A stretch of DNA of 64,000 nucleotides from Nocardia sp. BSTN01 (lineage in GTDB: Bacteria > Actinomycetota > Actinomycetes > Mycobacteriales > Mycobacteriaceae), in contig NZ_JADKYP010000007.1 in NCBI RefSeq assembly GCF_015354405.1, forward strand, positions 1 to 64,000. The letters run 5' to 3'. This document shows positions 8,161 through 26,255 of this stretch, piece by piece. Each line of letters opens with the position of its first letter. Positions within the stretch are counted from its first letter, which is position 1. The position numbers were made by a program, and so were the translations under genes. The notes below the pieces were generated by a model. The model was not told the DNA's origin. It ran no database searches and saw only the letters and a program-made list of their open reading frames with translations.

Positions 8161-8208
8161 CGTCGGGCCCCCTTTCAATAATGAATTCAACTTGGCTAGC
8201 ATCATGCC
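8161..8208. promoter_or_regulatory. divergent promoter with TGAATTCAA operator (site A)
   Basis: ATGAATTCAA at 8181-8190, followed on the plus strand by CTTGGC and TAGCAT (8197-8202), which fits a -10 box (TANNNT). The thioesterase ATG begins 7 bases after that box, so its mRNA is probably leaderless. The palindrome sits between the starts of the acyl-CoA synthetase and thioesterase genes. The same motif recurs at 13513, 13559, 23885, 26218 and 26243. Confidence 0.75.
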
Positions 8209-8643
8209 ATGACCAACACCGAACAGCGAAGCCGTCACGAGCGTTCGCTGCGCTACATGTTCAACAAGGTGCCCTTCATCACCGCCCTCGGCCTCGAACT
8301 CGTCGAGTGGGAGGACCGGGAAGATCACGTCGTCGTGCGGATGCCGGTGAACGCACTCGCCGACAACGGCGGCGGAACGCCACATGGTGGCGCGATCGCG
8401 ACCCTGCTGGACACCACCGGCGCGGCAGCGGTGTGGAACGGCCACGACTACGAACGCGGAACGCGAGGATCGACGGTCTCTCTGACCGTGAACTACCTGG
8501 GTGCCGCCCGCAACGAGGCGGTCATCGCCACGGGGCGGTGCGTGCGACGGGCGAAGGAACTGAACTTCGCCACGATCGACGCCGTCAGCGAGAGCGGCCG
8601 ACCGGTCGCCAGTGCCGTCCTGACCTATCGGATCGTGCCGTGA
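8209..8643 (+). CDS. PaaI-type hotdog thioesterase
   Basis: 144 residues, single hotdog domain. The motif GTPHGGAIATLLDTTGAAAV is the PaaI-family active-site helix, with the general base expected at the Asp. Such enzymes hydrolyse CoA thioesters and often recycle CoA from dead-end intermediates. There is no Shine-Dalgarno before ATG 8209; the start lies where transcription should begin, so leaderless translation is likely. Its stop overlaps the next gene's GTG start (GTGA). First gene of a five-gene plus-strand run ending at the terminator at 11218. Confidence 0.87.
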   Translation: MTNTEQRSRHERSLRYMFNKVPFITALGLELVEWEDREDHVVVRMPVNALADNGGGTPHGGAIATLLDTTGAAAVWNGHDYERGTRGSTVSLTVNYLGAARNEAVIATGRCVRRAKELNFATIDAVSESGRPVASAVLTYRIVP

Positions 8644-9089
8644 GCGCCCCCGAAACCGCCGACGACCTGGTCGGACGCACCGGGCAGCCGTTCGATTTCC
8701 CGATCGAACCCGGAAAGGTGCGCGAGTTCACCCGCGCCATCGGCACTCGCGATCCCGCCTATGCCGCGGGCGCGGTCACCCCGCCGACGTTCCTGATGGC
8801 CGCCGACCATTGGCAGAGCCGGGCGAACTCCCCCTGGGGAGACCATCCGCGCAATCTGGCCCGCACCCTGCACGCCGAACAAGAATTCATTTTCCATGGT
8901 CCACCGCCTCCGGCCGGCGTACGGCTGCGTGGGCAGGCTCGGATCGACAAGCGCTACACCAAGGAAGGGAAACGGGGAGGGACCATGACCTTCACCGAAA
9001 TCGTCACCGAGTACCGCGACAGCAGCGACCGGTTGGTCGCCGAGGTCCGGGCCACCCTCGTCGAGACGTCCAAGGCGGCGGGAAAATGA
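8640..9089 (+). CDS. MaoC-like dehydratase subunit (FAS1-like N-terminal type)
   Basis: 149 residues, start GTG 8640 overlapping the thioesterase stop. The sequence (FPIEPGKVREFTRAIG, then VTPPTFLMAADHWQ, HAEQEFIFHGPPPPAG) is typical of the non-catalytic hotdog partner of two-subunit enoyl-CoA or acyl-ACP hydratases such as HadA/HadC or ChsH2-type proteins. No D-x4-H pair typical of catalysis is seen. It overlaps the next gene, a MaoC protein that does carry the catalytic pair, by ATGA, so the two probably form one heteromeric hydratase. Confidence 0.85.
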   Translation: MSAPETADDLVGRTGQPFDFPIEPGKVREFTRAIGTRDPAYAAGAVTPPTFLMAADHWQSRANSPWGDHPRNLARTLHAEQEFIFHGPPPPAGVRLRGQARIDKRYTKEGKRGGTMTFTEIVTEYRDSSDRLVAEVRATLVETSKAAGK

Positions 9090-9520
9090 CCGCGGCGCAA
9101 GCGATTTCGGTAGGGACCGAGGCCGAGCCGTATATCGCCAAACCACTGACCATCACCGACTTCGTTCGTTACCAGGGCGCGGCCGGCGACTTCAATCCGA
9201 TCCATCACGACCACGGCAAGGCGACAGCCGCCGGCTTCGAGCAGCCGTTCGCCGTCGGCATGCTGGCCGCGGGTGTACTGGGCGGCTTCGCGGCCGGCTG
9301 GCTCGGCGCCGAGAACATCCGCCGCTACCGGATTCGGTTCGCCGAGCAGGCGTGGCCCGGTGACGTCCTGACCTACACCGGAGTCGTCACCGATGTCCGT
9401 ACCGATGCCGCTCCCGGCACGCGCGAGATCGACGTCGAACTCACCGTGACCCGGCAGACCGGCGGTGTGCACCTGCGCGGGTGGGCCACCTTCGTCCTGC
9501 CCGCCGAGGGCGACGCATGA
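9086..9520 (+). CDS. MaoC-type enoyl-CoA hydratase, catalytic subunit
   Basis: 144 residues. The hydratase-2 motif GDFNPIHHD at about 34-42 supplies the catalytic Asp35 and His40, followed by FAVGMLAAGVLGGFAAGWLG. It would hydrate a trans-2-enoyl-CoA to the (R)-3-hydroxyacyl-CoA, probably with the adjacent hotdog protein as partner. ATG 9086 overlaps the stop of the upstream subunit and its own stop overlaps the alcohol dehydrogenase start at 9517, so coupled translation is expected. Confidence 0.88.
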   Translation: MTAAQAISVGTEAEPYIAKPLTITDFVRYQGAAGDFNPIHHDHGKATAAGFEQPFAVGMLAAGVLGGFAAGWLGAENIRRYRIRFAEQAWPGDVLTYTGVVTDVRTDAAPGTREIDVELTVTRQTGGVHLRGWATFVLPAEGDA

Positions 9521-10605
9521 GCACTGCGACCGTTCTTGTCCTCGAGGCGCCGGAGCGGCTGGTCGCCCACGAATTCGACATTCCCGAGCCTCGACCGGGC
9601 GAGGCCGTGCTCCGGGTCGAAGCCTGCGGACTGTGCGGGACCGATCACGAGATGTTCACCGGGGCCATGCCCGCGCCACTTCCCCTCGTACCCGGCCACG
9701 AGGTGATCGGAACGCTGGAATCGGCGACCCCGGAGTTCCTCGCCGCACGTGGCCTGGCCGCCGGCGATCGGGTCGCGCTGGAGGTCTTCCAGCGCTGCGG
9801 GGAATGCGGCCCCTGCCGCCGCGGCGCGTATCCGCTGTGCCGGCGCCACGGCCTGCGCGACTCGTACGGCAACACGCCCATCTCGGTCGGCTCGGGACTG
9901 TGGGGCGGATACGCCACACACATGCTGCTGACCGCCGACTCCCTGGTGCACCGTGTCCCCGAGGGACTGGACCCCGCCTTCGCCACGCTGTTCAATCCAC
10001 TCGGAGCGGGAGTTCGCTGGGGCACCACCCTGCCGGAGGTGTCGACCGGCGATGTCGTCGTGGTGCTCGGGCCAGGTCTGCGTGGTTTGAGCGCGGTCGC
10101 CTCCGCCTCGCTCGCCGGCGCCGGTTTCGTCATGCTGACCGGTGCGGGCGAGCGGGATGCCGAACGGCTCGAACTCGGTCGAAAACTCGGCGCGACCGAG
10201 GCGATCGATATCACACGAGTCGATCCGAAGGCACTGCTGAAAGAGCGGGTCGGCGGATTGGCCGACGTGGTCGTCGATGTCACCGCCGCGGCGCCCGCGG
10301 CATTCACTCAGGCGCTCGATCTGGTCCGGCCGGGCGGCACCGTGGTGGTGGCGGGCACTCGCGGCAAGAAGGTGCTCGACCACTTCAACCCCGATCGGAT
10401 CGTGCTCAAGGAACTACGTCTGCTCGGGGCCCGTGGGGTCGACGGCGAGGCCTACGCGACCGCGCTCGAACTGCTCGCCACCGACGCGCGCTTCCGGGCG
10501 CTGCCCCGACGCACCGTAGGGCTCGACGTGGCAGCCGTCTCGGATCTGCTGTCCACGATGGCCGGTGGCAACGAGCCGCCCCTGCACGCGGTGGTGGTTC
10601 CGTGA
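9517..10605 (+). CDS. zinc-dependent alcohol dehydrogenase (MDR family)
   Basis: 362 residues, NAD(P)-dependent medium-chain dehydrogenase. Visible: the catalytic zinc ligands in CGLCGTDHE and GHEVIGTLE near the N terminus, the structural zinc cluster CGECGPCRRGAYPLC, and the nucleotide-binding segment VVVLGPGLRGLSAVASASL. It probably oxidises a hydroxyl formed on the CoA substrate or an early alcohol. ATG 9517 overlaps the MaoC stop; the stop overlaps the next GTG. Its substrate cannot be read from the sequence. Confidence 0.88.
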   Translation: MSTATVLVLEAPERLVAHEFDIPEPRPGEAVLRVEACGLCGTDHEMFTGAMPAPLPLVPGHEVIGTLESATPEFLAARGLAAGDRVALEVFQRCGECGPCRRGAYPLCRRHGLRDSYGNTPISVGSGLWGGYATHMLLTADSLVHRVPEGLDPAFATLFNPLGAGVRWGTTLPEVSTGDVVVVLGPGLRGLSAVASASLAGAGFVMLTGAGERDAERLELGRKLGATEAIDITRVDPKALLKERVGGLADVVVDVTAAAPAAFTQALDLVRPGGTVVVAGTRGKKVLDHFNPDRIVLKELRLLGARGVDGEAYATALELLATDARFRALPRRTVGLDVAAVSDLLSTMAGGNEPPLHAVVVP

Positions 10606-11180
10606 GCGACCCACACCGCGGCGCACGCCTGCCGCTCCTCGATCAGGCCGCGGCCGAGGCCGCCGCCGAAAAAATCGGCATCGATCCGAAGTACCTCGTC
10701 CAGCCGATCTGGACGATGCTGCTGGCCCGGCCGAAATATGCCAAGGCAGTCTATGAAGTGCTCACCGACCTGCTGTTTCGGAGTACATTGCCGGTCCGGC
10801 TGCGGGAGTTGCTCATCATGCGGATCGGCTGGGCGACCGCGGCGGAGTTCGAATGGGCGCAGCACTGGCAGGTCGCGACACGGGCCGGCGTCGACCCCGA
10901 CGACCTACTGGCGGTGCGCGATTGGCGCACCAGCGATCGGTTCGACGAGCCCGATCGGGCGGCGCTTGCCGCAGCCGACGAGGTCGTCGCCGAAGGAGAG
11001 ATCGGCGATGCTACCTGGGGCGCGTTACGAGCCCACTATTCGGAATCCGAACTGCTCGAACTCGTCGCGGTCATCGCCACCTGGCACTACGTGAGTGTGC
11101 TGGTGCGAAACCTGCGCGTCCCGCTGGACGAGGGTATGAGCGCCTGGCCACCGGACGGTCGCGAACCGCAGCGTCGCTGA
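10602..11180 (+). CDS. carboxymuconolactone decarboxylase-family protein
   Basis: 192 residues from GTG 10602, overlapping the alcohol dehydrogenase stop. The all-helical CMD/AhpD-like fold is suggested by LRELLIMRIGWATAAEFEWAQHWQVA, which contains the E-W-x-x-H pattern of the decarboxylase-like branch rather than the CxxC of AhpD peroxidase proteins. Members act as decarboxylases, lactonases or unknown enzymes in aromatic and terpenoid breakdown. It closes the five-gene run that starts at 8209 and is followed by a strong hairpin. Confidence 0.8.
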   Translation: MSDPHRGARLPLLDQAAAEAAAEKIGIDPKYLVQPIWTMLLARPKYAKAVYEVLTDLLFRSTLPVRLRELLIMRIGWATAAEFEWAQHWQVATRAGVDPDDLLAVRDWRTSDRFDEPDRAALAAADEVVAEGEIGDATWGALRAHYSESELLELVAVIATWHYVSVLVRNLRVPLDEGMSAWPPDGREPQRR

Positions 11181-11217
11181 GGCGATTCGCAAGGTCCGTC
11201 ATATCCCTGGGGCCGCC

Positions 11218-11266
11218 GACAGAAAAGGGGCGGAGCGCGCACAGCACGCTCCGCCCCTTTTCTGTC
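11218..11266. terminator. strong bidirectional terminator hairpin
   Basis: A perfect 20-base stem: GACAGAAAAGGGGCGGAGCG (11218-11237) pairs with 11247-11266 around a 9-base loop. The stem ends in A4 on one side and T4 on the other, so it works as an intrinsic terminator on both strands. It lies between the convergent CMD-family and acyl-CoA dehydrogenase genes. Confidence 0.9.
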
Positions 11267-11283
11267 TCGTCGCCGGACGGGCG

Positions 11284-12282
11284 TCAGCTCGCGGGGTCGA
11301 GGACGAGCGGATCCAGTTGCGGCGTGACAGCGCTGCGCACCACCATCCGGCCCAACTCGGTACGCAGACCTTCCGCGTGTCCCAGCACGAGGTCCAGTGC
11401 GAAACTGCGGCGGATCAGCCGATGCAGCGGAAACTCCCACGTCGATCCGACCGCCCCGCACACCTGCGCGGCCTGCCGGACGGCAAGGTCGGCGGCATCG
11501 CCCGCCAGTGCCTTCGCGACTGCCGATGCCAGCGGGTCCGGGTCCTGGGCGTAGGCGAGGCGCACCGCCTCGGCCGCGGCTTCGATCGCCACCTTGACCT
11601 CGGCCAGCCGGAAGCGCACCGCCTGAAAGGCACCGATCGGCCGGCCGAACTGATGCCGGTCCGTCACATGCGTAATCGCGAGGTCCAGGGTCGCCCGGGC
11701 CACACCGACGAGTTCGGCCGCCAGCGCGCGGCGTCCGGCTGCCACCGCCTCCGGCCAGGTGGCGGCGGGCAGGGGTTTCACATCGTCGAGAGCGACGACG
11801 CCGGAGATCCTGGACCACCCCCCTTCCGGGTCGAGGCCACCGACCGCGTCCGGAGCGAGCACCGCGGTGGGTATCGAGAACAGCGCGATGCCCGCGTCGG
11901 TCGCGCACGGGACGAGAACGCGCTCGGCCGCGCCACCGGACGTGCGGAGTACCCCGTCGAGCCTCAGCTGCCGGTTGTCGACGGGCATCGTCGGGCCAGA
12001 TTCCGCCGACCGCGGTCCCAGCGGGTAGACAACCGCGCCGGCGTCGGGCCCGGCCGGGTCGATCCCGAGAGCGGCGAGCACAATCTCGTCGAGCAGACCG
12101 GAAACGGCCAGCGACCGCCCCTGCTCCTCGAACAACAACGACGCGGCGGACGGCTCCTCCGCGACCACGTCCTCCCAGCCGAGCTCACGCACCGCGGCGG
12201 ACAGGCCCTCCGGCGCCGCCGCGTACTCGGTGAACAACGACCGCAGACTCTCCCGGAGCAGGCGATATTCGTCGGCGTCCAT
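11284..12282 (-). CDS. acyl-CoA dehydrogenase-like subunit, probably non-catalytic partner
   Basis: 332 residues, shorter than a standard acyl-CoA dehydrogenase. ATG 12282 shares a base with the stop of the upstream dehydrogenase (TGATG) and has AAGGAAGG before it. The central TDRHQFGRPIGAFQAVRFRL and the C-terminal helices are recognisable, but there is no catalytic Glu in the usual C-terminal place and the flavin loop is weak. This matches the small member of two-gene heterotetrameric dehydrogenases such as the FadE26/27 or ChsE pairs for steroid side chains. It likely acts with the next gene. Confidence 0.85.
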   Translation of the reverse strand: MDADEYRLLRESLRSLFTEYAAAPEGLSAAVRELGWEDVVAEEPSAASLLFEEQGRSLAVSGLLDEIVLAALGIDPAGPDAGAVVYPLGPRSAESGPTMPVDNRQLRLDGVLRTSGGAAERVLVPCATDAGIALFSIPTAVLAPDAVGGLDPEGGWSRISGVVALDDVKPLPAATWPEAVAAGRRALAAELVGVARATLDLAITHVTDRHQFGRPIGAFQAVRFRLAEVKVAIEAAAEAVRLAYAQDPDPLASAVAKALAGDAADLAVRQAAQVCGAVGSTWEFPLHRLIRRSFALDLVLGHAEGLRTELGRMVVRSAVTPQLDPLVLDPAS

Positions 12283-13475
12283 CACGAACCTTCCTTGGGC
12301 AAGCCGAGCACACGGTCGGCGATGATGCTGCGTTGAACTTCGGCGGCGCCACCGTAGATGGTCGAGGCGCGGGTGTAGAACCAATTCGAGCGCCACGCTT
12401 CGTCGGCGGCGTCGTCGGAGAAGAGGAAGGCCGAACGACGCAGGCTCAGGGCCGCGTCACAGACCCGTTGCTCGGCGGTGCCGAGTAACACCTTGTCGAT
12501 CGAGATATCCGGGCCGAGAATCTCTCCCGCGCCCAAGCGCTGCACGGTCCTCCCGCAACGAATGCGCAGCGCCTGTTGCGCCAGCCAGGCCGCACCCACC
12601 TCGGCGACAGCCCGATCGTCACTGTCGTCGGTTCCCGCCGCCAGCTCGGTGATCAGGCGACCGATATGCGCCTGGCGGACCCAGGCGTAATTGCCTCGTT
12701 CGTACTGCAGCAGGAACATGGCGACCGCCCATCCCTGTCCCTCGTCACCGACCAGGCGGTCGGCCGGAATCCGCGCGTTGTCGAAGAAGACTTCGGCAAG
12801 TTCGTTGTGGCCGTTGGAGAAGCGAATCGGCCGCACCTCTACACCCGGGGTATCCAGGTCGACCATCAGCATCGACAGCCCTCGGTGGCGGCTCTCGACC
12901 GTACCGGTACGGACCAGGGTGCCCATCCGCGCGGCGCCGATCCCCTGGCTGGTCCAGATCTTTTGCCCGCTCAGTACATAGTCGTCCCCGTCGCGGCGGG
13001 CACGGCACCGCAGGCTGGCCAGGTCGCTACCGGCTTCGGGCTCGGAAAAGCCCTGCGCCCAAGCCTTTTCGCCGGTCAGCGCCGAAGGCAGCAGCCGCGC
13101 GGCGACCTCCGGCGCGAAGGCGAGCACCGCCGGCGCCAGCGTCTCCAGCATCTCGTACTGCACCGGGGCCGGATATCCCGCGCGTTCGAGTTCGTCGTAG
13201 AGAACCGGCCGCAACACGGCCGGACCGCCGAGGCCACCGGCCGCCTCCGGCCAGCCCCACCGTCCCCAGCCGTGATCGTGCAGCAATCGGGTGAAGCGGC
13301 GGCCCGAGTCGAGCGCGGCCTCGGCGCTTTCGGGCTCCAGGCCATGGAACTGCGCCAACTCGTCCGGGCCGTCGAGCAACCACTGGCGTAGCCGGAGTCG
13401 ATGATCGGCCACGGTCGCGGCCGTATCCGGCCCCGTCGTCATGGCCGGGCCTGGCGGGGGTTGGGTCTGCGTCAC
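12282..13475 (-). CDS. acyl-CoA dehydrogenase, probable catalytic subunit
   Basis: 397 residues. Visible: AQGFSEPEAGSDLASLRCRA (flavin/substrate loop), QKIWTSQGIGAARMG, and the C-terminal YGGAAEVQRSIIADRVLGLP. The likely base is the Glu of QYERGNYAW. GTG 13475 is chosen because GAAGGAG lies 5 bases upstream; the frame is open 31 codons further but runs through the operator. It overlaps the small acyl-CoA dehydrogenase subunit, which suggests a heteromeric enzyme. Confidence 0.87.
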   Translation of the reverse strand: MTQTQPPPGPAMTTGPDTAATVADHRLRLRQWLLDGPDELAQFHGLEPESAEAALDSGRRFTRLLHDHGWGRWGWPEAAGGLGGPAVLRPVLYDELERAGYPAPVQYEMLETLAPAVLAFAPEVAARLLPSALTGEKAWAQGFSEPEAGSDLASLRCRARRDGDDYVLSGQKIWTSQGIGAARMGTLVRTGTVESRHRGLSMLMVDLDTPGVEVRPIRFSNGHNELAEVFFDNARIPADRLVGDEGQGWAVAMFLLQYERGNYAWVRQAHIGRLITELAAGTDDSDDRAVAEVGAAWLAQQALRIRCGRTVQRLGAGEILGPDISIDKVLLGTAEQRVCDAALSLRRSAFLFSDDAADEAWRSNWFYTRASTIYGGAAEVQRSIIADRVLGLPKEGS

Positions 13476-13504
13476 GGCTGCTCCTTCGTCGAACGCGCCG
13501 ACAA

Positions 13505-13585
13505 GATCGACTTTGAATTCAATATGGATCGGCGAGGCAATCGTCGCGCAAAAGGATTTTGAATTCAATCTGCTATGCTACATCG
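13505..13585. promoter_or_regulatory. divergent promoter with two TTGAATTCAA operators (sites B, C)
   Basis: Two perfect TTGAATTCAA palindromes at 13513-13522 and 13559-13568, one near each diverging start. After the second, TATGCT (13574-13579) fits a -10 box and the crotonase GTG begins at 13586, exactly 7 bases later, as at site A. This controls the paired dehydrogenases (minus) and two crotonases plus a GntR gene (plus). Confidence 0.78.
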
Positions 13586-14395
13586 GTGTCCGACGAGATA
13601 CTCACCGACCTGGCCGATGGCGTTCTTACCGTCACGCTCAACCGTCCCGACCGCCTCAACGCGTGGACCTACGAACTGGGTGACAGCTACTTCGACGTTC
13701 TCGACCGCGCCGACGACGACCCCGACATTCGTGTGGTCGTCCTGACCGGAGCCGGCCGCGGCTTCTGCTCCGGTCTCGACATGGAGGCATTGAGCGCGGC
13801 CTCGGCGAGTGGTGCGAGACGGACCCCCGCACACGGCCGCCGGATGACCCACGCACAGTCCTTCCGAAAGCCGCTCATCGGCGCGATCAACGGTGCCTGC
13901 GTGGGGTTCGGCCTGGTCCAGGCGCTCGCCTGCGATATCCGGTTCGCCTCCGCGTCGGCGTACTTCGTACCCGCCTTCACGCAGCGCGGACTCAACGCCG
14001 AATACGGAACGAGCTGGCTACTCCCCCGGATGATCGGCCAGACACGGGCGGCCGAGTGGTTGTTCTCCGGCCGGCGCATGGACGTATCGGAAGCCGAACG
14101 GATCGGTCTCGTGAACCGAGTCTGCGCCGCGGACGATCTGATCGCCGAGACCGTCGCCTACGCCCGCAACCTCGCGGCCGCCGCGTCCCCGATCGCCTTG
14201 GCCGATACCAAGGCTCAGATTGCCGGGGACTGGCTGCGCGACCGCGTGACAGCCGAAGACCATGCCAAATCCCTCGGACATCAGCCGGGTCACCGCGTCG
14301 ACTTCGCCGAAGGCGTACGGAGCTTCGTGGAACGCCGGCCACCGCAGTTCCAGCCACTCCCGCCGCGCTCGGCGGACCACGACCGGCACCCCTAG
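13586..14395 (+). CDS. enoyl-CoA hydratase/isomerase-family protein, atypical active site
   Basis: 269 residues from GTG 13586 (no Shine-Dalgarno; probably leaderless). The crotonase fold is clear: VTLNRPDRLNAW near the N terminus, RGFCSGLDMEAL as the first oxyanion segment and NGACVGFGLVQALACD as the second. The Glu residues of true hydratases are absent: the ELxxxCD position reads VQALACD, and the FGxPE position reads FVPAFTQRGLNAEYG. It may act as an isomerase, ring-cleaving hydrolase or other crotonase. It heads the plus-strand run with the next crotonase and GntR regulator. Confidence 0.86.
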   Translation: MSDEILTDLADGVLTVTLNRPDRLNAWTYELGDSYFDVLDRADDDPDIRVVVLTGAGRGFCSGLDMEALSAASASGARRTPAHGRRMTHAQSFRKPLIGAINGACVGFGLVQALACDIRFASASAYFVPAFTQRGLNAEYGTSWLLPRMIGQTRAAEWLFSGRRMDVSEAERIGLVNRVCAADDLIAETVAYARNLAAAASPIALADTKAQIAGDWLRDRVTAEDHAKSLGHQPGHRVDFAEGVRSFVERRPPQFQPLPPRSADHDRHP

Positions 14396-14426
14396 ACCCG
14401 CACCAGTAGTCGCAAGGAGGCGCTCC

Positions 14427-15215
14427 ATGGCGCACACCACCACCGTCACCACGAACGACTCCGTCGTCGTCACCGCCGAAGGCCCGATCCGAACCGTCAC
14501 ACTGAGCCGGCCGGACAACCTCAACGCCGTCGACGCCGCCATGCACCGGCGCTTGTCCCAGATCTGGACCGAGATCGCCGACGACCCCGATGCCAGAGCG
14601 GTCGTATTGACCGGCGCGGGAAGAGCTTTCAGCGCCGGTGGGGACTTCGGATTCATGAGTGGGCATCGTGATCCCGACATCCGCTGGCGGGTTATGGAAG
14701 AGGCGCGGCGCATCATCACCGAAATGCTGCACTTTCCACTTCCCGTGGTAGCCGCGGTGAACGGCCCGGCCGTCGGCCTCGGATCGAGCCTCGCCCTGAT
14801 GTCGGATCTGGTGCTGATGGCCGACACCGCGTTTCTGGCCGATCCGCATGTGCTGGTCGGTCTGGTCGCCGGAGACGGTGGGGCCGCGACACTTCCGGCT
14901 CACACCAGCCTGCTGCACGCCAAGGAGTTCCTGTTCCTGGGCGACCGCGTGAACGCACAGACCGCCGTCGCCCGAGGTATGGCCAATCGTGTCGTCCCGG
15001 CGGCCGATCTCCTCACCGAGGCCAACGCCCTCGCGCAGCGGTTGGCCGCTCTTCCTCAGCACGCGCTCCGGGATACCAAACGCGCCCTGAACCAGAGCGT
15101 CGAGTTGAGCTTCGCCGCCGGCCGTAACTACGGGCTGGCCGCCGAACGCTACAGCATGACCGATCTCGATCATCACGCTTTCCTGGCGGCCGAGGAGCGC
15201 CGGACGGTCGAGTAG
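14427..15215 (+). CDS. enoyl-CoA hydratase/isomerase-family protein
   Basis: 262 residues. ATG 14427 has AAGGAGG 6 bases upstream. Visible: TVTLSRPDNLNAVD, AFSAGGDFGFM, NGPAVGLGSSLALMSD and LVGLVAGDGGAATLP. The hydratase Glu positions are replaced, while an Asp (AGDGG) lies in the second loop as in dienoyl-CoA isomerases. So double-bond movement is as likely as hydration. It lies 31 bases after another crotonase and 46 before a GntR gene. Confidence 0.85.
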   Translation: MAHTTTVTTNDSVVVTAEGPIRTVTLSRPDNLNAVDAAMHRRLSQIWTEIADDPDARAVVLTGAGRAFSAGGDFGFMSGHRDPDIRWRVMEEARRIITEMLHFPLPVVAAVNGPAVGLGSSLALMSDLVLMADTAFLADPHVLVGLVAGDGGAATLPAHTSLLHAKEFLFLGDRVNAQTAVARGMANRVVPAADLLTEANALAQRLAALPQHALRDTKRALNQSVELSFAAGRNYGLAAERYSMTDLDHHAFLAAEERRTVE

Positions 15216-15261
15216 TGTCGCTGTGCACATCACAGCGGGGTGCAACTGAGAAAGGGTGAGG

Positions 15262-16887: not shown

Positions 16888-16949
16888 CCGATTCTCCTTC
16901 TCTGTGTCGAATTCGGTGACCGCGTCGGCAATTTCAGCCCGAGGCAGGG

Positions 16950-18482: not shown

Positions 18483-18509
18483 TACGTCCGCCTCCCGCCG
18501 CCGCCCGAC

Positions 18510-19235
18510 TCACCACGGCCGGGTTCCGCCCGCACCGAAGAACCCGCCGGTGGGCCCGTCCGGACCGAGCAGGGCCAACCGCACCGGCTCCGCCGCTCCC
18601 TCGGCCGGGGTCAGGGGTCCGCGCCCCTCGTTCATCTCGGTCCCGACGAAGCCGGGTTCCACGGCGTTGACCTTGATGCCGGAATCGCGCAGCTCCTTGG
18701 CGAAAGCGACCACCACCGCGTTGAGGGCGGTCTTCGAACTGTTGTAGCCGAGCTGGTTGATGCGGGCGAACGGAGTCGTCTCGTCCAGACCCGCGGTCAG
18801 CGAGCCCGTGATGCTGCTGACCATGACCACATTGGCGGACGGCGCCGCCTGTAGCAGCGGGAGAAATGCTTGCGTCACCCGGATGGCACCGAAGACGTTC
18901 ACCTCGTAGATGGCCTTGATCTCGGCCATCGGCTCGCGACTGGGCGGGGTGGACCAGCCGAAGGCGGCCCCCGCGTTGTTCACCAGCACGTCGACCCGAT
19001 CGACCTGCTCGGCCACCGCGGCGGCCGCGGCGGCCACCCCGGCGTCGTCGGTGACGTCGAGTTCCAGGAGCCGTACGTCCGAGCCCGAAGCCACCAACTC
19101 GTCGACCACGGCCTGGCCACGGACGGCGTCACGCGCCCCCAGGTAGACGGTCGATCCCGCTGCGGCGAGCAATTCGGCGATCGCCCGTCCCACACCTTTG
19201 TTCGCGCCCGTGACGACCGCGATTCGTTTGTCCAT
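18510..19235 (-). CDS. short-chain dehydrogenase/reductase
   Basis: 241 residues. Classical SDR: TGANKGVG at 9-16, NNAG at about 86-89, catalytic Ser141 and YNSSK with Tyr164/Lys168. The insertion LTAGLDETTPFARIN before the Tyr and the C-terminal TGGFFGAGG resemble carbonyl-reductase-like SDRs that act on bulky ketones with NADPH. ATG 19235 has AAGGAAG 8 bases upstream. Part of the minus-strand catabolic run; substrate unknown. Confidence 0.88.
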   Translation of the reverse strand: MDKRIAVVTGANKGVGRAIAELLAAAGSTVYLGARDAVRGQAVVDELVASGSDVRLLELDVTDDAGVAAAAAAVAEQVDRVDVLVNNAGAAFGWSTPPSREPMAEIKAIYEVNVFGAIRVTQAFLPLLQAAPSANVVMVSSITGSLTAGLDETTPFARINQLGYNSSKTALNAVVVAFAKELRDSGIKVNAVEPGFVGTEMNEGRGPLTPAEGAAEPVRLALLGPDGPTGGFFGAGGTRPW

Positions 19236-19291
19236 CAAATGCTTCCTTTGTTTCCGGTCCGGCCGACACTGCGGCCTTCTATCGCGCTTCG

Positions 19292-20179
19292 TTACGAGGA
19301 CACCCCACGCAACCGATCGATTTCCGGCATATGCGATGTGACGCTGAGCGGGAGGAACGGGAACCACCCCTCCCCGGACCAGCGGGTGAATCCGGCCGCC
19401 GCGCTGCTGCCGCCGTCGATATGCAGTGCCTGACCGGTCACATACCGGGACAGACCGGAAGCGAGGAAGAGCAGCCCACCCGCCCAGTCGTCGGCGCTAC
19501 CGCCTCGTTCCAGCGGAATCGTGGCGGCGTAGCGGGCCGCCACCGCTTGCTCGCCGGCGGTCTCGTGGCCGAGCAGTCCGACCAGGGCCGGTGTTTCGAC
19601 GATATCGGGCGCGATCGTGTTGACCCGGATATTGCTCGGCGCCAACTCGACTGCCAGCGAGGCGCTCATGCTGGTGAGTGCCGCCTTCATCGCCGCGTAC
19701 ACCGAACACGACGGCGCGCCGCGATGCGCCTCGATCGACGTGACGTTGATGATCGATGCGCCCTGCGTCCCGTTACGCTCGCTCGCCGCGCGCAGCTGCG
19801 GCAGGAATCGCCGGATCGCCTGCACGGGCGCGAGGAAGTTGAGGCGCATCAGGCTGTTGATCGCGTTCTCGCTGAGAGACTCCAGCTCGGCCCAGAAGGT
19901 GCCACCGACGACATTCACCAGGATGTCGACGGTGTCGCCCGCCGCCGCGGCCACCTCGTCCAGCGCCGTCGACTCCCGCGCGTCACCGACCACGAACTGA
20001 ACGTCGGCGCCCAGGTCGGCGCGCAAGGCCGCTACCGCATCGCCGTCACGATCGAGCACGACGAGCTCCGCACCGGCGCGATGCAGGGCGAGCGAACTCA
20101 ACGCGCCGAGTCCGCCGGCGCCGCCGATGATCACCGCCCGCTTGCCGGCGAGACCGCCCAGCTCTTCCAGATAACCCAC
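19292..20179 (-). CDS. short-chain dehydrogenase/reductase
   Basis: 295 residues from GTG 20179, chosen for the CCGGAGG site 5 bases upstream; the open frame extends over 100 codons upstream with no support. SDR features: GGAGGLG at 19-25, NVVGG in place of the usual NNAG at 89-93, Ser148, Tyr161 and Lys165, and the C-terminal GQALHIDGGSSAAAGF. It probably oxidises a 3-hydroxyacyl-CoA or a ring alcohol. A 110-base gap separates it from the thiolase. Confidence 0.87.
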   Translation of the reverse strand: MGYLEELGGLAGKRAVIIGGAGGLGALSSLALHRAGAELVVLDRDGDAVAALRADLGADVQFVVGDARESTALDEVAAAAGDTVDILVNVVGGTFWAELESLSENAINSLMRLNFLAPVQAIRRFLPQLRAASERNGTQGASIINVTSIEAHRGAPSCSVYAAMKAALTSMSASLAVELAPSNIRVNTIAPDIVETPALVGLLGHETAGEQAVAARYAATIPLERGGSADDWAGGLLFLASGLSRYVTGQALHIDGGSSAAAGFTRWSGEGWFPFLPLSVTSHMPEIDRLRGVSS

Positions 20180-20289
20180 AGAAACCTCCGGAGAATGTGC
20201 CGGGATGGCCTGGTCGTGCCACCCCGGCGTCGATATGAATGCGGTCGAGCAGGCGGTGATCGGACCTGCCCGACGACAGCGCGAGCGTC

Positions 20290-21435
20290 CTAATCGACGA
20301 GTTCGACGATCGTCGCGTTCGCGGTGCCGCCACCTTCGCACATCGTCTGCAATCCGTATCGCAAACCCTGAGCGCGCATGTGGTGGATCAGCCTGGTCAT
20401 CAGAATCGCTCCCGACCCACCCAGCGGATGACCGACCGCGATGGCCCCGCCGAGCGGATTCGTCCGCGCCGGGTCGGCGCCGGTTTCGGCGAGCCACGCC
20501 AGTGGGACGGGCGCGAACGCCTCGTTGACCTCGAACGCGCCGATATCGCCGATCGACAGCCCGGAACGCTTCAGCACCTTGGCCGTGGCCGGAATCGGAC
20601 CGGTCAGAACCATCACGGGATCGGCACCGGTGACGGCCCCCGAGTGGTAGCGCACCAACGGCGTCAGGCCGAGGTCGCGGGCCTTCTCAGGGGTCGTCAC
20701 CAGCAGCGCCGCCGCGCCGTCGGAGATCTGCGAGGAATTGCCCGCGTGGATCACCCCATCGGGCCGGAAGGACGGCTTCAGGGCCGCCAGCGTCTCCGGG
20801 GTGGTGCCACGGCGCACCCCCTCGTCGACGGTGACGGTTCCGTTCTCGGTCTCGACCGGCACCGTCTGCCCGGTGAACGCACCGGAATCGATGGCGGCCG
20901 CCGCCCGCGCGTGCGACTCCGACGCATACTCGTCGAGGGCCTGCCGGGACAGGTTCCAGCGTTCGGCGATCATTTCCGCGCCGGTGCCCTGGTTGAAGTC
21001 CGCATCGTCGTAGCGAGCACGCGCAGCCGGGCCGTAAGGCAGGCCGGACTCTCGCGCCGCGCCGAGCGGGACCCGGCTCATGGTCTCCACACCACCGGCG
21101 ACGACAATGTCCTGCTGCCCCGACATCACCGCGAAGGCAGCGTGATCGAGCGCCTGCTGACTGGACCCGCACGCCCGGTTGATGGTCACGCCGGGGACGG
21201 TCTCCGGCCAGCCGGCGGCCAGTACCGCGAATCGTCCGACGTTGCTGGACTGGTCACCGAGCTGGGTGACACAGCCCCACTGGACATCGTCGATATCCGC
21301 GGGATCGATTCCGGTGCGGCGCACCAACTCTCGCAGCACCAGCGCGGACAGATCCACCGGATGAATGCCGGACAACCCGCCTTTGCGCTTGCCGATCGGT
21401 GTCCGCACCGCCTCGACGATTACTGCCTCACGCAT
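20290..21435 (-). CDS. acetyl-CoA acetyltransferase / 3-ketoacyl-CoA thiolase
   Basis: 381 residues, complete thiolase. The acyl-accepting Cys89 is in NRACGSSQQALDHA, His336 in GGAIAVGHPLGGSG, and the second Cys366 in TMCEGGGTANAT. It cleaves a 3-ketoacyl-CoA with CoA, releasing acetyl- or propionyl-CoA. ATG 21435 has GAGGAG 8 bases upstream. Intact catalytic residues argue for classical thiolysis, unlike the SCP2-type thiolases of sterol side chains. Confidence 0.93.
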   Translation of the reverse strand: MREAVIVEAVRTPIGKRKGGLSGIHPVDLSALVLRELVRRTGIDPADIDDVQWGCVTQLGDQSSNVGRFAVLAAGWPETVPGVTINRACGSSQQALDHAAFAVMSGQQDIVVAGGVETMSRVPLGAARESGLPYGPAARARYDDADFNQGTGAEMIAERWNLSRQALDEYASESHARAAAAIDSGAFTGQTVPVETENGTVTVDEGVRRGTTPETLAALKPSFRPDGVIHAGNSSQISDGAAALLVTTPEKARDLGLTPLVRYHSGAVTGADPVMVLTGPIPATAKVLKRSGLSIGDIGAFEVNEAFAPVPLAWLAETGADPARTNPLGGAIAVGHPLGGSGAILMTRLIHHMRAQGLRYGLQTMCEGGGTANATIVELVD

Positions 21436-21462
21436 CCGTCCAACTCCTCGTATCGTTTGTGC

Positions 21463-22245
21463 TCATCGCCCGGTCCATACCGGGGCGCGCCGTTGCGCGA
21501 AGGCGGCCGCGCCCTCCACCGCATCGGCCGAGTCGAAAACCGGCTGCGAGATCGCGGTCTGCCGTGCGAACAATTCGTCGGCAGGCCAGTCCTCGGATTC
21601 GGTGGCGAGCCGCTTCGCTGCGACCACCGCCAGCGGTGCGTTCGCGGCGATGGTTCGCGCCAGCTCGCGTGCCGCGGCGAGTGCCTGTCCCTCCGCCACG
21701 ACTTCGTTCACCAGTCCCCACTCGCGCGCCCGGGCCGCGTCGAACGGTTCCCCGGTCAACAGCGCCTGCATGGCGAACGCGCGCGGGATACGCCGCGGCA
21801 AGCGCACATTGCCGCCACCGCGAGCCAGTAGCCCGCGCTTGACCTCGGGCAACCCGAAGCGAGCGGTTTCCGCGGCCACGACGAGGTCGCACGCGAGGAC
21901 GAGTTCGAGCCCCCCGCCCAGCGCCCACCCCTCGACCGCGGCGATCAACGGTTTGGCCGGTGGCGCCTCGACGAGTCCCCCGAATCCGCGCCCGTCGACT
22001 CGCGGCAGTTCCCCCGCGGCGAATCGCTTCAAATCCATGCCGGCGCAGAAGGTGCCGCCGGCGCCGGTCAGGATCGCGACGGTGAGATCGGACCTCGACT
22101 CGAGCTCGTCCAACGCCGCCGCGATCCGCTCGGACGCGGCCTTCGTCATCGCATTGCGCTGAGCCGGACGGTCGATCGTGATCACCATGATCGCGCCGTC
22201 GACCTCGACCTGGACCTCACCGGCCCCGGAACCGTTCGCCGTCAT
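21463..22245 (-). CDS. enoyl-CoA hydratase (both catalytic Glu present)
   Basis: 260 residues. Unlike the other crotonases here it keeps both glutamates of true hydratases: ALGGGLELVLACD and FGLPEVKRGLL. Also visible: ITIDRPAQRNAM and GTFCAGMDLKRF. It should hydrate trans-2-enoyl-CoA to the (S)-3-hydroxyacyl-CoA. ATG 22245 overlaps the stop of the SDR at 22242 (ATGA), which suits the next step of beta-oxidation by that dehydrogenase. Confidence 0.9.
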   Translation of the reverse strand: MTANGSGAGEVQVEVDGAIMVITIDRPAQRNAMTKAASERIAAALDELESRSDLTVAILTGAGGTFCAGMDLKRFAAGELPRVDGRGFGGLVEAPPAKPLIAAVEGWALGGGLELVLACDLVVAAETARFGLPEVKRGLLARGGGNVRLPRRIPRAFAMQALLTGEPFDAARAREWGLVNEVVAEGQALAAARELARTIAANAPLAVVAAKRLATESEDWPADELFARQTAISQPVFDSADAVEGAAAFAQRRAPVWTGR

Positions 22246-23003
22246 CGCGGTGCCATCCGGATCGCGCCGTCCAAGCGAATGGTCTGGCCGTTCAGATACG
22301 AGTTCTCGAGCATCTCCACCGCGAGCCGGCCGTACTCCTCGGGACGGCCCAGGCGCTTCGGATGCGGGACCGACGCCGCCAGCCCCTCGCGGATATCGTC
22401 GCGCAGCCGTCCGAGCATCGGTGTCTCGAAGGTGCCCGGGGCGATGGTATTGACCCGGATGGACCAGCTCGCGAGGTCGCGGGCGGCGACGAGTGTGATG
22501 CCGTGGACGGCCGCCTTGGACGCCGTGTACGACGTCTGCCCGATCTGGCCGTCGAACGCGGCGACAGAAGCCGTCATGACGATCGCGCCGCGATCACCGT
22601 CGAGTTCCTCGTTTCCCGCCATCCGCTGCGCGGCCAGCCGCAGGACGTTGTAGGTGCCGAGCAGGTTGACGCGCAACACCTCCTCGAAACCTTCCAGCGT
22701 TCCGGGCACCCGGTTGCGGTCGATGATGCGGGTACGGTCACCGCCGCGACCGGCGCAGTGCACCACACCCCGGACCGGACCGGCCTGCTCCGCGGCGTCC
22801 AAGGCCGCCACCATCTGCTCTTCGCTGGTGACGTCGGCCGGCACGAAACGCACGCCCAGATCGGCCGCGGTCTTCTCGCCGGGCGACTCGGGCAGATCCG
22901 CGATCACCACGGACGCACCCCGGGCTACGAGGGCTGCCGCGGTAGCGCGTCCCAGACCCGAGCCTCCTCCTGTGACCAGTGTGGATGTGCCTTCGAGTCG
23001 CAT
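22242..23003 (-). CDS. SDR, probable 3-hydroxyacyl-CoA dehydrogenase (type II)
   Basis: 253 residues. TGGGSGLG at 11-18, Ser146, Tyr159, Lys163. The overall shape (IADLPES after beta2, then TASVAAFDGQIGQTSYTASK, and IAPGTFETPML) resembles HSD10-type 3-hydroxyacyl-CoA dehydrogenases. It would oxidise the product of the adjacent hydratase, with which it shares an ATGA overlap. ATG 23003 has TGGAGGT 6 bases upstream. Confidence 0.88.
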   Translation of the reverse strand: MRLEGTSTLVTGGGSGLGRATAAALVARGASVVIADLPESPGEKTAADLGVRFVPADVTSEEQMVAALDAAEQAGPVRGVVHCAGRGGDRTRIIDRNRVPGTLEGFEEVLRVNLLGTYNVLRLAAQRMAGNEELDGDRGAIVMTASVAAFDGQIGQTSYTASKAAVHGITLVAARDLASWSIRVNTIAPGTFETPMLGRLRDDIREGLAASVPHPKRLGRPEEYGRLAVEMLENSYLNGQTIRLDGAIRMAPR

Positions 23004-23054
23004 TTTTACCTCCAGATTTCGGTGTTGGTGAAGCTATATCCGGCGTAGCGGATA

Positions 23055-23843
23055 TCAGGTGCCGGGGAATCGAGCCGGTCGCTTCTGCGCGAAAGCCGCG
23101 ATTCCCTCGGCGAAGTCGTCGGTGTCCATCAGTTCGGCCTGTATCGCGGTCTCACGATCCAGTGCGGCGTGCAGATCCGCCGGTGGATCGGCGAACAGCC
23201 CTTTGATCAGAGCCAGCGCCCGGGGCGGGCCGGAAGCGAAGAGCTGGGCCTCTGCCATGGCGGTCGCGAGTACGTCGGCGGGCTCGACCACAGCATCGAC
23301 CATGCCCAGCCGCAGCGCCTCCTCCGCCTGGATCAGGCCGCCGAGCATCATCAGGTGACGTGCGCGCGCGACACCGATCCGTCGGGGCAGCGACCAGGAG
23401 ATACCGAGGTCGGCAGCCAGCCCCACGCCGGTGAACCGCGCGGAGAACCGTGCCGTCGAGGACGCCACGATGCGGTCGCAGGCCAGAGCCAGACCCAGTC
23501 CCGCGGCGAGAGCTACGCCGTCGACCGCGGCGACGACCGGGGTGGAGCCGCCGGCGATCGACCGGACGATCCGCTGCGCGGCCTCGAGCCGCGGCACGGC
23601 TACATCCGGCGTCATCCGTTCCATCAGCGATACGTCACCGCCGGAACAGAACGCCCCGTCCCGCCCGGTCAGAACGATCGCCCGCACCGCGGGATCGGCA
23701 TCGGCCTTTTCGAAGACCTCCGCGAGCACCGGACGGACTGCGAGATCCAACGCGTTACGGCGTTCCGGCCGATCGAGGGTGACGATCCGCACCGCGTTCT
23801 CGTCACGCACTCGGACGCCGTAGAGCGTCTGCTCCGCACCCAT
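23055..23843 (-). CDS. enoyl-CoA hydratase/isomerase-family protein, atypical active site
   Basis: 262 residues. Crotonase features: VTLDRPERRNALDL, GAFCSGGDVSLME, DGVALAAGLGLALACD. The catalytic Glu positions are lost (LGLALACD; RFTGVGLAADLG) and an Asp sits near the second, so isomerase activity is possible. ATG 23843 has GGAGGAG 3-9 bases upstream. It is the first gene of the eight-gene minus-strand run transcribed from the site D promoter. Confidence 0.86.
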   Translation of the reverse strand: MGAEQTLYGVRVRDENAVRIVTLDRPERRNALDLAVRPVLAEVFEKADADPAVRAIVLTGRDGAFCSGGDVSLMERMTPDVAVPRLEAAQRIVRSIAGGSTPVVAAVDGVALAAGLGLALACDRIVASSTARFSARFTGVGLAADLGISWSLPRRIGVARARHLMMLGGLIQAEEALRLGMVDAVVEPADVLATAMAEAQLFASGPPRALALIKGLFADPPADLHAALDRETAIQAELMDTDDFAEGIAAFAQKRPARFPGT

Positions 23844-23879
23844 TCATCTCCTCCGCTTCCCGGCTCGTGGTCTACGATC

Positions 23880-23945
23880 GCATTTTGAATTCAACTTCGC
23901 CAGTATCGCAGAATTGAATACATCTTGGCTAGTACCGTTTCCCGC
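23880..23945. promoter_or_regulatory. divergent promoter with TTGAATTCAA operator (site D)
   Basis: A perfect TTGAATTCAA at 23885-23894, and a degenerate copy TTGAATACAT at 23914-23923 followed by CTTGGC and TAGTAC (23930-23935), which copies the spacing to the -10 box seen at site A. It lies between the crotonase run (minus) and the racemase gene (plus). Confidence 0.75.
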
Positions 23946-23987
23946 GGCACCGCCCGCCCGGCGGACCGCGGGCAGAAAGGGCTCTCA

Positions 23988-25151
23988 ATGACATCTCGCG
24001 ACAACTCCGCCGGCGCGGAACCTTCCGCCTCCGGCCCGCTGTCGGGCCTGCGCGTGCTCGAGCTCGGCGGCATCGGCCCGGGGCCGTTCGCCGCGATGCT
24101 GCTCGCCGATCTCGGCGCCGACGTCGTGCGTATCGACCGCAAGGGACAACCGACACTGTTCCCCGGTACTCCGGCGCAAAATCTGCTGCATCGCGGAAAG
24201 CGGTCGGTGGATCTCGACCTCAAGTCCGACTCCGGGCTCACCGCCGCACACGGTCTCGTCGCGGCCGCGGACGCGATCATCGAGGGATTCCGGCCGGGAG
24301 TCGCCGAACGGCTGGGATTGGGCCCCGCCGACTGCCTGGAACTCAATCCGGCACTGGTCTACGGCCGGATGACGGGATGGGGCCAAGACGGCCCACTGGC
24401 GCACACCGCCGGCCACGACCTGAACTACATCGCGGTGACCGGGGCGCTGCACGCCATCGGCACGGCGGGCGGTCCACCGCAGATCCCCGTCAATTTGCTC
24501 GGCGACTTCGGCGGTGGCGGTCTCTACCTGGTCGTCGGCTTGCTGGCGGCACTGCGCGAGTCGGCCCGCACCGGCCGGGGCCAAGTAGTCGACGCGGCGA
24601 TCGTGGACGGCGTTTCGCATCTGCTGGCCGGAACGCACGCCCGGATGGCATCGGGGACGTGGGCCGACGAGAGGGGCGTCAATCTGTTCGACGGCGGCGC
24701 CCCGTTCTACTCCGTATACGACACCGCCGACGGCACCTACATGGCGGTAGGCGCCGTCGAACCCCAGTTCTACGCGGCCTTCGTCACCGGTCTGGGACTG
24801 GACGTCGATCTCGGTCGGCAACACGATCGGTCGACCTGGCCCGAACTCCGGGCGCGAATCGCGGAGACATTTCGCTCACGGACACGGGCCGAATGGATCG
24901 AGATCTTCGCAGGCACCGACGCCTGCGTATCCCCGGTACGCAGTCTGCGCGAGGCGGCGACAGATCCGCAGATCGCGGCTCGCGGCAGCGTGGCCTCGCC
25001 CGGCGGAGTTCTGCAGCCCGGCCGCGCACCGCGATTCTCCGCCCACCCACACGTCGGCGTCGGTGTCGCGCCGGAACCGGGTATGCACACCGAGGAAGTG
25101 CTGGAGGAATGGATCGGCATCCGCGAGGAGGCCCCGCGGATGCCGAGTTGA
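23988..25151 (+). CDS. alpha-methylacyl-CoA racemase (CaiB/BaiF family)
   Basis: 387 residues. The known triad of mycobacterial MCR (His126, Asp156, Glu241) is matched by His143 (AGHDLNYIAVTG), Asp173 (LLGDFGGGG) and Glu258 (MAVGAVEPQFYAAF); the gaps of 30 and 115 residues are the same. Racemases of this type interconvert (R)- and (S)-2-methylacyl-CoA so that the S-specific dehydrogenases can act. Plain CoA transferases lack this set. ATG 23988 has AGAAAGG 7 bases upstream. It lies alone on the plus strand across from the long beta-oxidation run and strongly suggests a methyl-branched substrate. Confidence 0.92.
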   Translation: MTSRDNSAGAEPSASGPLSGLRVLELGGIGPGPFAAMLLADLGADVVRIDRKGQPTLFPGTPAQNLLHRGKRSVDLDLKSDSGLTAAHGLVAAADAIIEGFRPGVAERLGLGPADCLELNPALVYGRMTGWGQDGPLAHTAGHDLNYIAVTGALHAIGTAGGPPQIPVNLLGDFGGGGLYLVVGLLAALRESARTGRGQVVDAAIVDGVSHLLAGTHARMASGTWADERGVNLFDGGAPFYSVYDTADGTYMAVGAVEPQFYAAFVTGLGLDVDLGRQHDRSTWPELRARIAETFRSRTRAEWIEIFAGTDACVSPVRSLREAATDPQIAARGSVASPGGVLQPGRAPRFSAHPHVGVGVAPEPGMHTEEVLEEWIGIREEAPRMPS

Positions 25152-25162
25152 CCCGAGGCTTG

Positions 25163-26200
25163 TCAGCCGACCGGGCGCGTGGCGCCCGTCAGCCGCGCGA
25201 CTTCCGCGGCGACATCGCGCCACACCGTCCGGTCGTGCTGATACGGCGTCGAGAACGACACCGAGCGGGCGATCGGACCATATCGCTCGACGAGCTGCCG
25301 TGCCACGGCATCCGGTTCGCCCACGACGGCGACCGCATCCAGGATCTCGTCGTCGATCAGGGTTGCCAGTTCGGACCAGCGCCCCTGCTTCGTCATCGCC
25401 GTGAGCTCACCAGCGACAGCCTCCCAGCCGTGCAGCTCCAAAACCCCCCGATAGGAGGGAGTGGAGGCGTAGAACGCGATCTGCGCGCGCACCCCGGCCG
25501 TTGCCGCCGCGAGTTCCTCCTCGGTACGGCCCGTGGCCGCGAGAACCGGGCCACACAGAGCGAACTCGTCGATGTCGCGCCCGGCACGCGCCCGCCCGCG
25601 CGCGACCGCGGGGAGAGTGACCTCCCGCAGATATCGCGTCGTGGTGAACGGATGGAACGCCAAGCCGTCGCACACCTCCCCCGCCACTTCGGTCATGCGC
25701 TCCCCCACCGCTGCGAGGAAGATCTCGGGCACACCGAATTCGTGCGCGGCCGGCCGGAAGAAGGGAGGCATCAACGTGTGGGTGTAGAAATCACCGGCGA
25801 AATCCAGGTTCTTGTCTTCCTGCCAGGACTCCCAGATGGCGCGTACCGCGGTCACATACTCGCGCATGCGCGCGGCAGGATGCGACCACGGCATCGAGAA
25901 GCGGCGTTCGATATGCGACTTGACCTGCGAGCCGAGGCCCAGGGTGAACCGGCCACGGCTGTAGCGCGCCAGGTCGTAGGCAGCACTCGCCGTGGTCAGC
26001 GGACTACGACCGAAGGCGATGGCCACCGCCGTTCCGACACGCAACCGCTCCGTAGCCGCGGCGGCGGACAGGCAGCGCAGGAACGGATCGTATTTGGACT
26101 CACCACACCACGCCGTAGCGAAGCCTTCGGATTCCATCCGCCGAGCTTCCGCACCCGTGCCTTCCAAATCCTCACTGAGGGACGCATCGAGACGCAACAT
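25163..26200 (-). CDS. LLM-class (F420-type) oxidoreductase
   Basis: 345 residues, luciferase-like TIM barrel. Visible: FGRSPLTTASAAYDLARYSRGRFTLGLGSQ in the region that contacts F420 in this class, and AARMREYVTAVRAIWESW after it. ATG 26200 is proposed; it has no Shine-Dalgarno but lies 7 bases after TACATT, a fitting -10 box, so it may be leaderless. A TTG at 26227 inside the operator is possible but unlikely. It links the regulon to the F420H2 made by Fgd at the left edge. Substrate unknown. Confidence 0.85.
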   Translation of the reverse strand: MLRLDASLSEDLEGTGAEARRMESEGFATAWCGESKYDPFLRCLSAAAATERLRVGTAVAIAFGRSPLTTASAAYDLARYSRGRFTLGLGSQVKSHIERRFSMPWSHPAARMREYVTAVRAIWESWQEDKNLDFAGDFYTHTLMPPFFRPAAHEFGVPEIFLAAVGERMTEVAGEVCDGLAFHPFTTTRYLREVTLPAVARGRARAGRDIDEFALCGPVLAATGRTEEELAAATAGVRAQIAFYASTPSYRGVLELHGWEAVAGELTAMTKQGRWSELATLIDDEILDAVAVVGEPDAVARQLVERYGPIARSVSFSTPYQHDRTVWRDVAAEVARLTGATRPVG

Positions 26201-26209
26201 GCAGGTCAA

Positions 26210-26255
26210 TGTAGCAGATGAATTCAAGTTAGACTTCCATGAATGAATTCAACTT
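26210..26255. promoter_or_regulatory. divergent promoter with two TGAATTCAA operators (site E)
   Basis: ATGAATTCAA occurs at 26218-26227 and again at 26243-26252; the second overlaps the first codons of the TetR gene. TAGACT (26230-26235) fits a -10 box 7 bases before ATG 26243, and TACATT on the other strand fits one for the LLM gene. Two operators over the regulator's own promoter suggest autoregulation. Confidence 0.75.

Follow-up and report, generated by a model that had tools for sequence, protein, structure and literature searches.

The palindrome WTGAATTCAA recurs at all four divergent promoter regions of a 23-gene acyl-CoA catabolic block in Nocardia sp. BSTN01, and its reading as a shared, block-specific operator that would join these promoters into one regulon is well supported by the sequence. 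On balance, we favor the view that this operator serves a single repressor that is local and autoregulated, with the TetR-family protein encoded at position 26243 within the block as the most probable candidate. The window, as the term is used here, is the whole stretch analyzed, i.e., the first 64 kb of contig C174 (NZ_JADKYP010000007.1), in a genome (G000) of 7,791,454 bp and 206 contigs.

The predicted operator palindrome in the window and the genome

Within the window, the motif ([A/T]TGAATTCAA) has exactly six occurrences, at positions 8181, 13513, 13559, 23885, 26218, and 26243, and a seventh, degenerate copy (TTGAATACAT) lies at 23914 (Table 1). These are the copies named in the original prediction, and both a scan of the window and a weight matrix recovered them: the six exact copies rank first (scores 20.7–22.0), the degenerate copy is seventh (17.2), and the next site scores 13.0, although only the gap to that next score is informative, because the matrix was built from these same seven sites. 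In 100 dinucleotide shuffles of the window the motif has 0 matches.

The genome-wide count that had been proposed as a check gives nine distinct exact sites, six of them within the 18-kb block, versus one for a reversed control pattern. The three sites outside the block are C13:146013, C167:11501, and C126:68893, and the perfect palindrome TTGAATTCAA occurs three times in the whole genome, each time inside the block. With one mismatch allowed, matches are common (38 sites versus 10 for the control; the nearest further one on the same contig is at 131,740), so that specificity is confined to the exact motif. Under random scatter of nine sites, a particular span of 18,072 bp would receive at least six with a probability of ∼1e-14; since the motif was chosen from this very block, the real case is weaker than this value implies. 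A literature search for TTGAATTCAA returned no title recognizable as a bacterial operator among the matches listed, from which absence from print cannot be claimed; the passages of PMC10304680 that matched the motif are primers.

The copies also share flanking bases, with a T three bases 3′ of the core in all seven and an A three bases 5′ of it in four. The two-sided form, with A and T each eight bases from the center of an exact core, is found genome-wide only at 8181, 13513, 13559, and 23885. The one-sided extension WTGAATTCAWNNT is also present, on one strand, at C126, C163, and C167, and was therefore rejected as a block-exclusive mark; only the two-sided form is exclusive.

Predicted operator position at the promoters

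The block spans 5.45–26.9 kb and, on the reading of its open reading frames (ORFs) and domains, comprises 23 genes in eight presumed transcripts that diverge from four gaps, or hubs, and converge tail to tail between them; the four hubs and the 23 genes agree with the original prediction. The gaps measure 48, 110, 144, and 41 bp (the last 42 bp if llm starts at 26200), or ∼343 of 21,441 bp, and all seven copies fall within them, the copy at 26243 at a gap edge. The earlier statement that every copy lies between diverging genes and none inside a gene body thus stands with one qualification: if the TetR start is ATG 26243, that copy coincides with the first TetR codons (an in-frame alternative, TTG 26255, is seen by inspection).

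Hexamers resembling a -10 element were assigned by inspection (none for ligA or ech4), and at five promoters the operator stands 2–6 bp ahead of such a hexamer. The order is TTGAATTCAA, 5 bp, TATGCT, 6 bp, GTG start for ech1; ATGAATTCAA, 6 bp, TAGCAT, 6 bp, ATG for the 4HBT gene; TTGAATTCAT, 4 bp, TACATT, 7 bp, ATG for llm; ATGAATTCAA, 2 bp, TAGACT, 7 bp, ATG for tetR; and TTGAATACAT, 6 bp, TAGTAC, then 52 bp to the ATG for caiB. Four of these five promoters look leaderless, and the distance from operator center to start codon is 22.5–23.5 bp at the 4HBT gene, ech1, and llm. At acad2 the order is reversed, the likely -10 element (CATATT) being closely followed by the palindrome at 13513. This placement fits occlusion of the polymerase, and with it repression and autoregulation.

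The TetR protein as candidate repressor

The TetR gene encodes an N-terminal helix-turn-helix domain (TetR_N, PF00440; 27.6 bits, cut-off 24), carries two operator copies (26218 and 26243) at its own promoter, and is flanked by operons that carry the others. Beyond these positions, the TetR reading draws on the concentration of exact sites (6/9 in the genome) and of all perfect palindromes inside the block. Binding of a TetR-family protein to a site composed of TTCAT/ATGAA elements is described for MSMEG_3765 in passages of PMC10663510 and PMC5660060. In the mechanism that we propose, a TetR dimer would bind wTGAATTCAw (in four copies the longer symmetric form ANNwTGAATTCAwNNT) at the four divergent promoters, and the bound repressor would block the polymerase on eight transcripts, its own included; once an acyl-CoA of the pathway occupied its C-terminal domain, the repressor would come off the DNA and all 23 genes would be switched on at the same time. 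The sites, their positions, their rarity in the genome, and the gene content are computed, and from these we infer the promoters, the binder, its ligand, and the repression.

Relatives of the TetR protein were sought at E ≤ 1e-20 in 149 genomes of the genus and 401 of the family (samples of larger groups), and are present in 4 of 149 and 4 of 401, the window's own genome included in both counts. A wider scan of genome contigs, which may leave out records near the window's own, gave three homologue loci, including those of N. flavorosea and Nocardia sp. alder85J. Genes resembling those of the block (46–64% identity) lie near five of six TetR homologues, three or four in each of G097, G086, and G355 and one each in G264 and L098; the sixth locus (G123, a 14-kb contig) has none. 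By comparison, such genes are found at none of ten loci with a homologue of the second regulator of the block (GntR, discussed below), where the best match other than gntR itself has 39% identity.

Several observations weigh against the TetR protein as the reader. No orthologous cluster was found in the genus and family genomes or in the wider contig scan, and the stretches around the TetR homologues (36–51% identity, six genomes) are free of the motif even with one mismatch allowed, so the expectation that the operator would be conserved in orthologous clusters was not borne out. This lack withholds phylogenetic support for the operator. Instead, a GGGAACRTTGTTC palindrome, possibly a different operator, is conserved ahead of tetR in two of these genomes (G097 and G086; L011, L012). 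The comparison of loci is also uneven (14–40 kb around TetR versus 20 kb around GntR), and this genus is rich in beta-oxidation genes. As to the site itself, its contiguous core of 10 bp would make a short TetR operator, and the mainly one-sided conservation of the outer position could reflect promoter bases. A sigma-70 consensus scan of 5400–25399, which leaves hub 4 outside, found 0 promoters versus 1.2 expected, and the -10 and promoter assignments are for this reason by-eye and unproven. Finally, the block encodes another regulator, the third gene of the ech1-ech2-gntR operon, behind two perfect copies.

We take the absence of the motif near the homologues to reflect a private operator that has diverged, since in its recognition helix (SGISARRFYCLF) the window's TetR departs from three aligned homologues (S.TSASNFYRRF); such a change would allow a changed operator.

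The GntR/FCD protein as rival reader

The original prediction had the TetR gene as the only one in the block, which holds for what was scanned, but it did not weigh the GntR/FCD regulator (GntR helix-turn-helix and FCD domains, 36.7 and 39.1 bits). Because gntR sits behind two perfect copies and tetR at two copies, either protein would be autoregulated. A less likely alternative to the TetR reading is thus that the GntR/FCD protein reads the palindrome, with the usual two-base spacing and an altered half-site (TTGA for TTGT), and regulates itself by way of both perfect copies. In passages of PMC4494728, FadR-subfamily sites are given as compact TKGT/ACMA palindromes with 2–3 bp spacing, a geometry that TTGA-AT-TCAA shares; the consensus there took only regulators with conforming sites, and NanR and BioR are named as exceptions. 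The degenerate copy TTGAATACAT has AC on one side, and paired TTGTATACAA sites adjoin an FCD protein (33% identity) from a different genome of this genus (L051), which also has the SRVPV helix. Yet the motif has boxes GA…TC rather than the subfamily's GT…AC, and exact TKGT-N2-3-ACMA sites are absent from the hubs, where a single near match is found (23868); the sole exact site in the block (18976) is inside a gene.

Among 39 matches to the GntR protein overall (the window's own included), 19 were fetched from genus g29, probably Mycobacterium (40–45% identity); all 19 keep the DRN, SRVP, and YHRG residues of the window's protein, and despite the same recognition residues the motif is absent from all their loci (∼3.6 kb each), even with one mismatch allowed, which weighs against the GntR protein. 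In the ten 20-kb homologue loci (nine from g29, one from another family), one-mismatch matches occur in four: three are TTGAATTCGA at a distance of ∼6 kb, and the fourth, TTGAATCCAA at L096, lies 406 bp before gntR and speaks for the GntR protein. A TGAGAAACT-like element is present near gntR in 17 of the 19 g29 loci (L058–L076) within one mismatch, but it was rejected as a GntR operator; it looks like a promoter element, and TGAGARACT occurs once in the window (TGAGAGACT, 19873), inside a gene. At L051, palindromes of the form TTTGTATACAAAT occupy positions 2162–2171 and 2246–2255, just downstream of the FCD-type GntR gene.

In a broader version, to which we give a similarly low probability, the GntR protein would read the operator after leaving the GT…AC rule (TTGA/TCAA for TTGT/ACAA), and TetR and this re-specified GntR would share or divide control of an acyl-CoA pathway of 23 genes that was seen in none of the other genomes searched. 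It is less probable still that TetR reads WTGAATTCAA while GntR reads another site or tunes one operon: two regulators do occur in one block, and a near-consensus GntR site (TGGTCTACGA, 23868) lies in hub 3, but this is one near match only, in an analysis without a systematic search for a second shared motif.

Copies outside the block

Each of the three exact sites outside the block has a setting of its own. The site at C13:146013 is inside a ferritin-like gene. The site at C126:68893 (L002) lies ∼50 bp before an SDR gene, beside TTGACA, and this gene is a possible further target of the regulator; a search of 59 other genomes for relatives of its product at E ≤ 1e-60 gave none. The third, C167:11501, precedes an ABC exporter gene (Pfam result) and forms part of a series of TGAATTCA-type elements (C167:11485–11510; L003/L025) at a 16-bp period. 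The same period is seen in all four loci compared, and in the other three (G020, L101; G409, L111; G337, L113) the elements also precede ABC exporter genes, as read by eye. In the MSMEG_3762/63/65 locus, a 36-bp operator binds MSMEG_3765 according to passages of PMC5660060 and PMC10663510, and the C167 site can be accounted for without the block because its locus resembles this efflux locus. By eye, a TetR-like protein is encoded nearby downstream of the C167 site, and the divergent gene at L101 and L111 reads as a 3-methyladenine DNA glycosylase.

A paired scan (TGAATTCA-N8-38-TGAATTCA) found the pair in 4 of the 149 genomes from the genus and 12 of the 401 from the family, the window's own included, versus one genome (G076) in each set for the reversed control. 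Besides L003, the loci L101, L111, and L113 were read further. The pair was rejected as a marker of the block elsewhere, since only one of 13 non-own loci has any match to a block protein (a ligase at 31% identity, L106).

That a regulator encoded elsewhere, such as the TetR-like protein beside the C167 exporter, reads the block sites is improbable: the C167 promoter does hold TGAATTCA-type copies, but its regular period contrasts with the spacings of paired copies in the block (46, 29, and 25) and with the hub that has a single site. Least probable of all, the repeats would be a shared promoter element or a chance clustering of GAATTC rather than operators; the right flanks are alike at 8181 and 23914 (CTTGGCTAG), but the distance to the -10-like hexamer varies, the acad2 copy lies downstream of its likely -10, and neither the three other exact places in the genome nor the empty shuffles favor this explanation.

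Of the earlier proposal of a local, autoregulated TetR regulon, the shared, block-specific, and suitably placed operator stands, while TetR as its binder is only inferred and has a rival in the GntR/FCD protein. The operator, two candidate regulators, and eight transcripts provide a testable handle on the catabolic block. A point of note for the prediction of regulons from motifs is that the remaining exact copies of this short motif in the genome belong to something else.

Gene content of the block

The block encodes two acyl-CoA ligases, three acyl-CoA dehydrogenase genes, four enoyl-CoA hydratases, three SDRs, and two MaoC-like proteins, along with one each of a thioesterase-like protein, alcohol dehydrogenase, carboxymuconolactone decarboxylase (CMD), epimerase-like protein, thiolase, CoA-transferase III, F420-type LLM oxidoreductase, GntR/FCD, and TetR (Table 1). 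The CoA-transferase III (caiB) matches alpha-methylacyl-CoA racemases (E 2e-117), and because of this racemase-like protein the gene content suggests an alpha-methyl-branched acyl-CoA as the acyl-CoA of the pathway; a sterol- or isoprenoid-like compound would be a guess. For acad2, the top matches are Tcur3483 and 4x28 chain A, which are steroid-type heteromeric dehydrogenases. The product of acadC is less telling on substrate: ordinary short-chain dehydrogenases head its list of matches, with the partner chains further down (Tcur3481 18th of 41, E 1.7e-12; 4x28 chain D, 2.6e-7).

Downstream of tetR, a 4HBT-like ORF on the minus strand (26890–27921) overlaps the tetR stop codon with its end, and its promoter side has no motif copy. 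Just past the block, 28208–30562 encodes a large regulator of the LuxR type that contains AAA and TPR domains.

Table 1. Genes of the catabolic block and copies of the predicted operator, in window coordinates.
Feature	Position	Strand	Remark
Acyl-CoA dehydrogenase (acad1)	5453..6823	-	ORF limits
AMP-dependent acyl-CoA ligase (ligA)	6622..8160	-	GTG start 8160 by inspection
Operator copy 1, ATGAATTCAA	8181..8190	.	lone copy in 48-bp gap ligA (-) / 4HBT gene (+)
4HBT thioesterase-like	8209..8643	+	apparently leaderless
FAS1_DH/MaoC-like subunit	8640..9089	+	start approximate
MaoC-like dehydratase	9086..9520	+	start approximate
Zinc-type alcohol dehydrogenase	9481..10605	+	
Carboxymuconolactone decarboxylase-like protein	10620..11180	+	start approximate
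Acyl-CoA dehydrogenase-like protein (acadC)	11284..12396	-	
Acyl-CoA dehydrogenase-like protein (acad2)	12282..13475	-	best matches Tcur3483, 4x28 chain A
Operator copy 2, perfect palindrome TTGAATTCAA	13513..13522	.	at acad2 (-) promoter
Operator copy 3, perfect palindrome	13559..13568	.	5 bp before -10-like TATGCT of ech1-ech2-gntR
Enoyl-CoA hydratase (ech1)	13586..14395	+	apparently leaderless GTG start
Enoyl-CoA hydratase (ech2)	14262..15215	+	ORF limits; domain from residue 58-75
GntR/FCD (FadR-subfamily) regulator, 228 aa	15256..15942	+	rival candidate reader of operator
NAD-dependent epimerase-like	15976..16953	-	
Acyl-CoA ligase (ligB)	16950..18482	-	
SDR (sdr1)	18510..19367	-	
SDR (sdr2)	19292..20497	-	ORF limits
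Acyl-CoA thiolase	20290..21435	-	
Enoyl-CoA hydratase (ech3)	21463..22245	-	
SDR (sdr3)	22242..23003	-	
Enoyl-CoA hydratase (ech4)	23055..23843	-	
Operator copy 4, perfect palindrome	23885..23894	.	in ech4 (-) / caiB (+) gap
Degenerate operator copy TTGAATACAT	23914..23923	.	6 bp before -10-like TAGTAC of caiB
Alpha-methylacyl-CoA racemase-like CoA-transferase III (caiB)	23988..25151	+	ATG 23988 by inspection
F420-type LLM oxidoreductase (llm; TIGR03617)	25163..26200	-	ATG 26200, apparently leaderless
Operator copy 5, ATGAATTCAA	26218..26227	.	upstream of -10-like hexamers of llm (-) and tetR (+)
Operator copy 6, ATGAATTCAA	26243..26252	.	overlaps likely TetR start codon
TetR-family regulator, 216 aa	26243..26893	+	predicted most likely reader of operator

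Comparison with known systems

In the KstR and KstR2 regulons of mycobacteria and rhodococci, as is proposed here, a TetR repressor acts at divergent promoters of a large block of acyl-CoA-degrading genes. The consensus operators of KstR and KstR2 have no match in the window, in line with the original prediction that the palindrome is neither of these, and KstR itself is only weakly similar to the window's TetR (KstR model 26.7 bits versus a cut-off of 280).

BkaR (Rv2506/MSMEG_4718), as described in passages of PMC3920632, resembles the switch proposed here in being an autoregulatory TetR protein whose divergent promoter carries two operator copies and whose catabolic regulon is local, but its operator, given there as GTTA(N)T(N4)A(N)TAAC, is absent from the window. 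The MSMEG_3765/Rv1685c system shares a TetR repressor and a site of TTCAT/ATGAA elements (passages of PMC5660060 and PMC10663510), and differs in that its 36-bp site stands before an ABC exporter operon, the matching site here being C167:11501, outside the block; nor do the block spacings follow the 16-bp period measured here for that type. The FadR-subfamily GntR regulators, of which the block encodes a member, are like the block in their compact palindromes and in divergons with single or double sites, and unlike it in their TKGT/ACMA boxes, where the motif has TTGA/TCAA (passages of PMC4494728). A local TetR switch, as favored here, is an ordinary and well-known kind of system.

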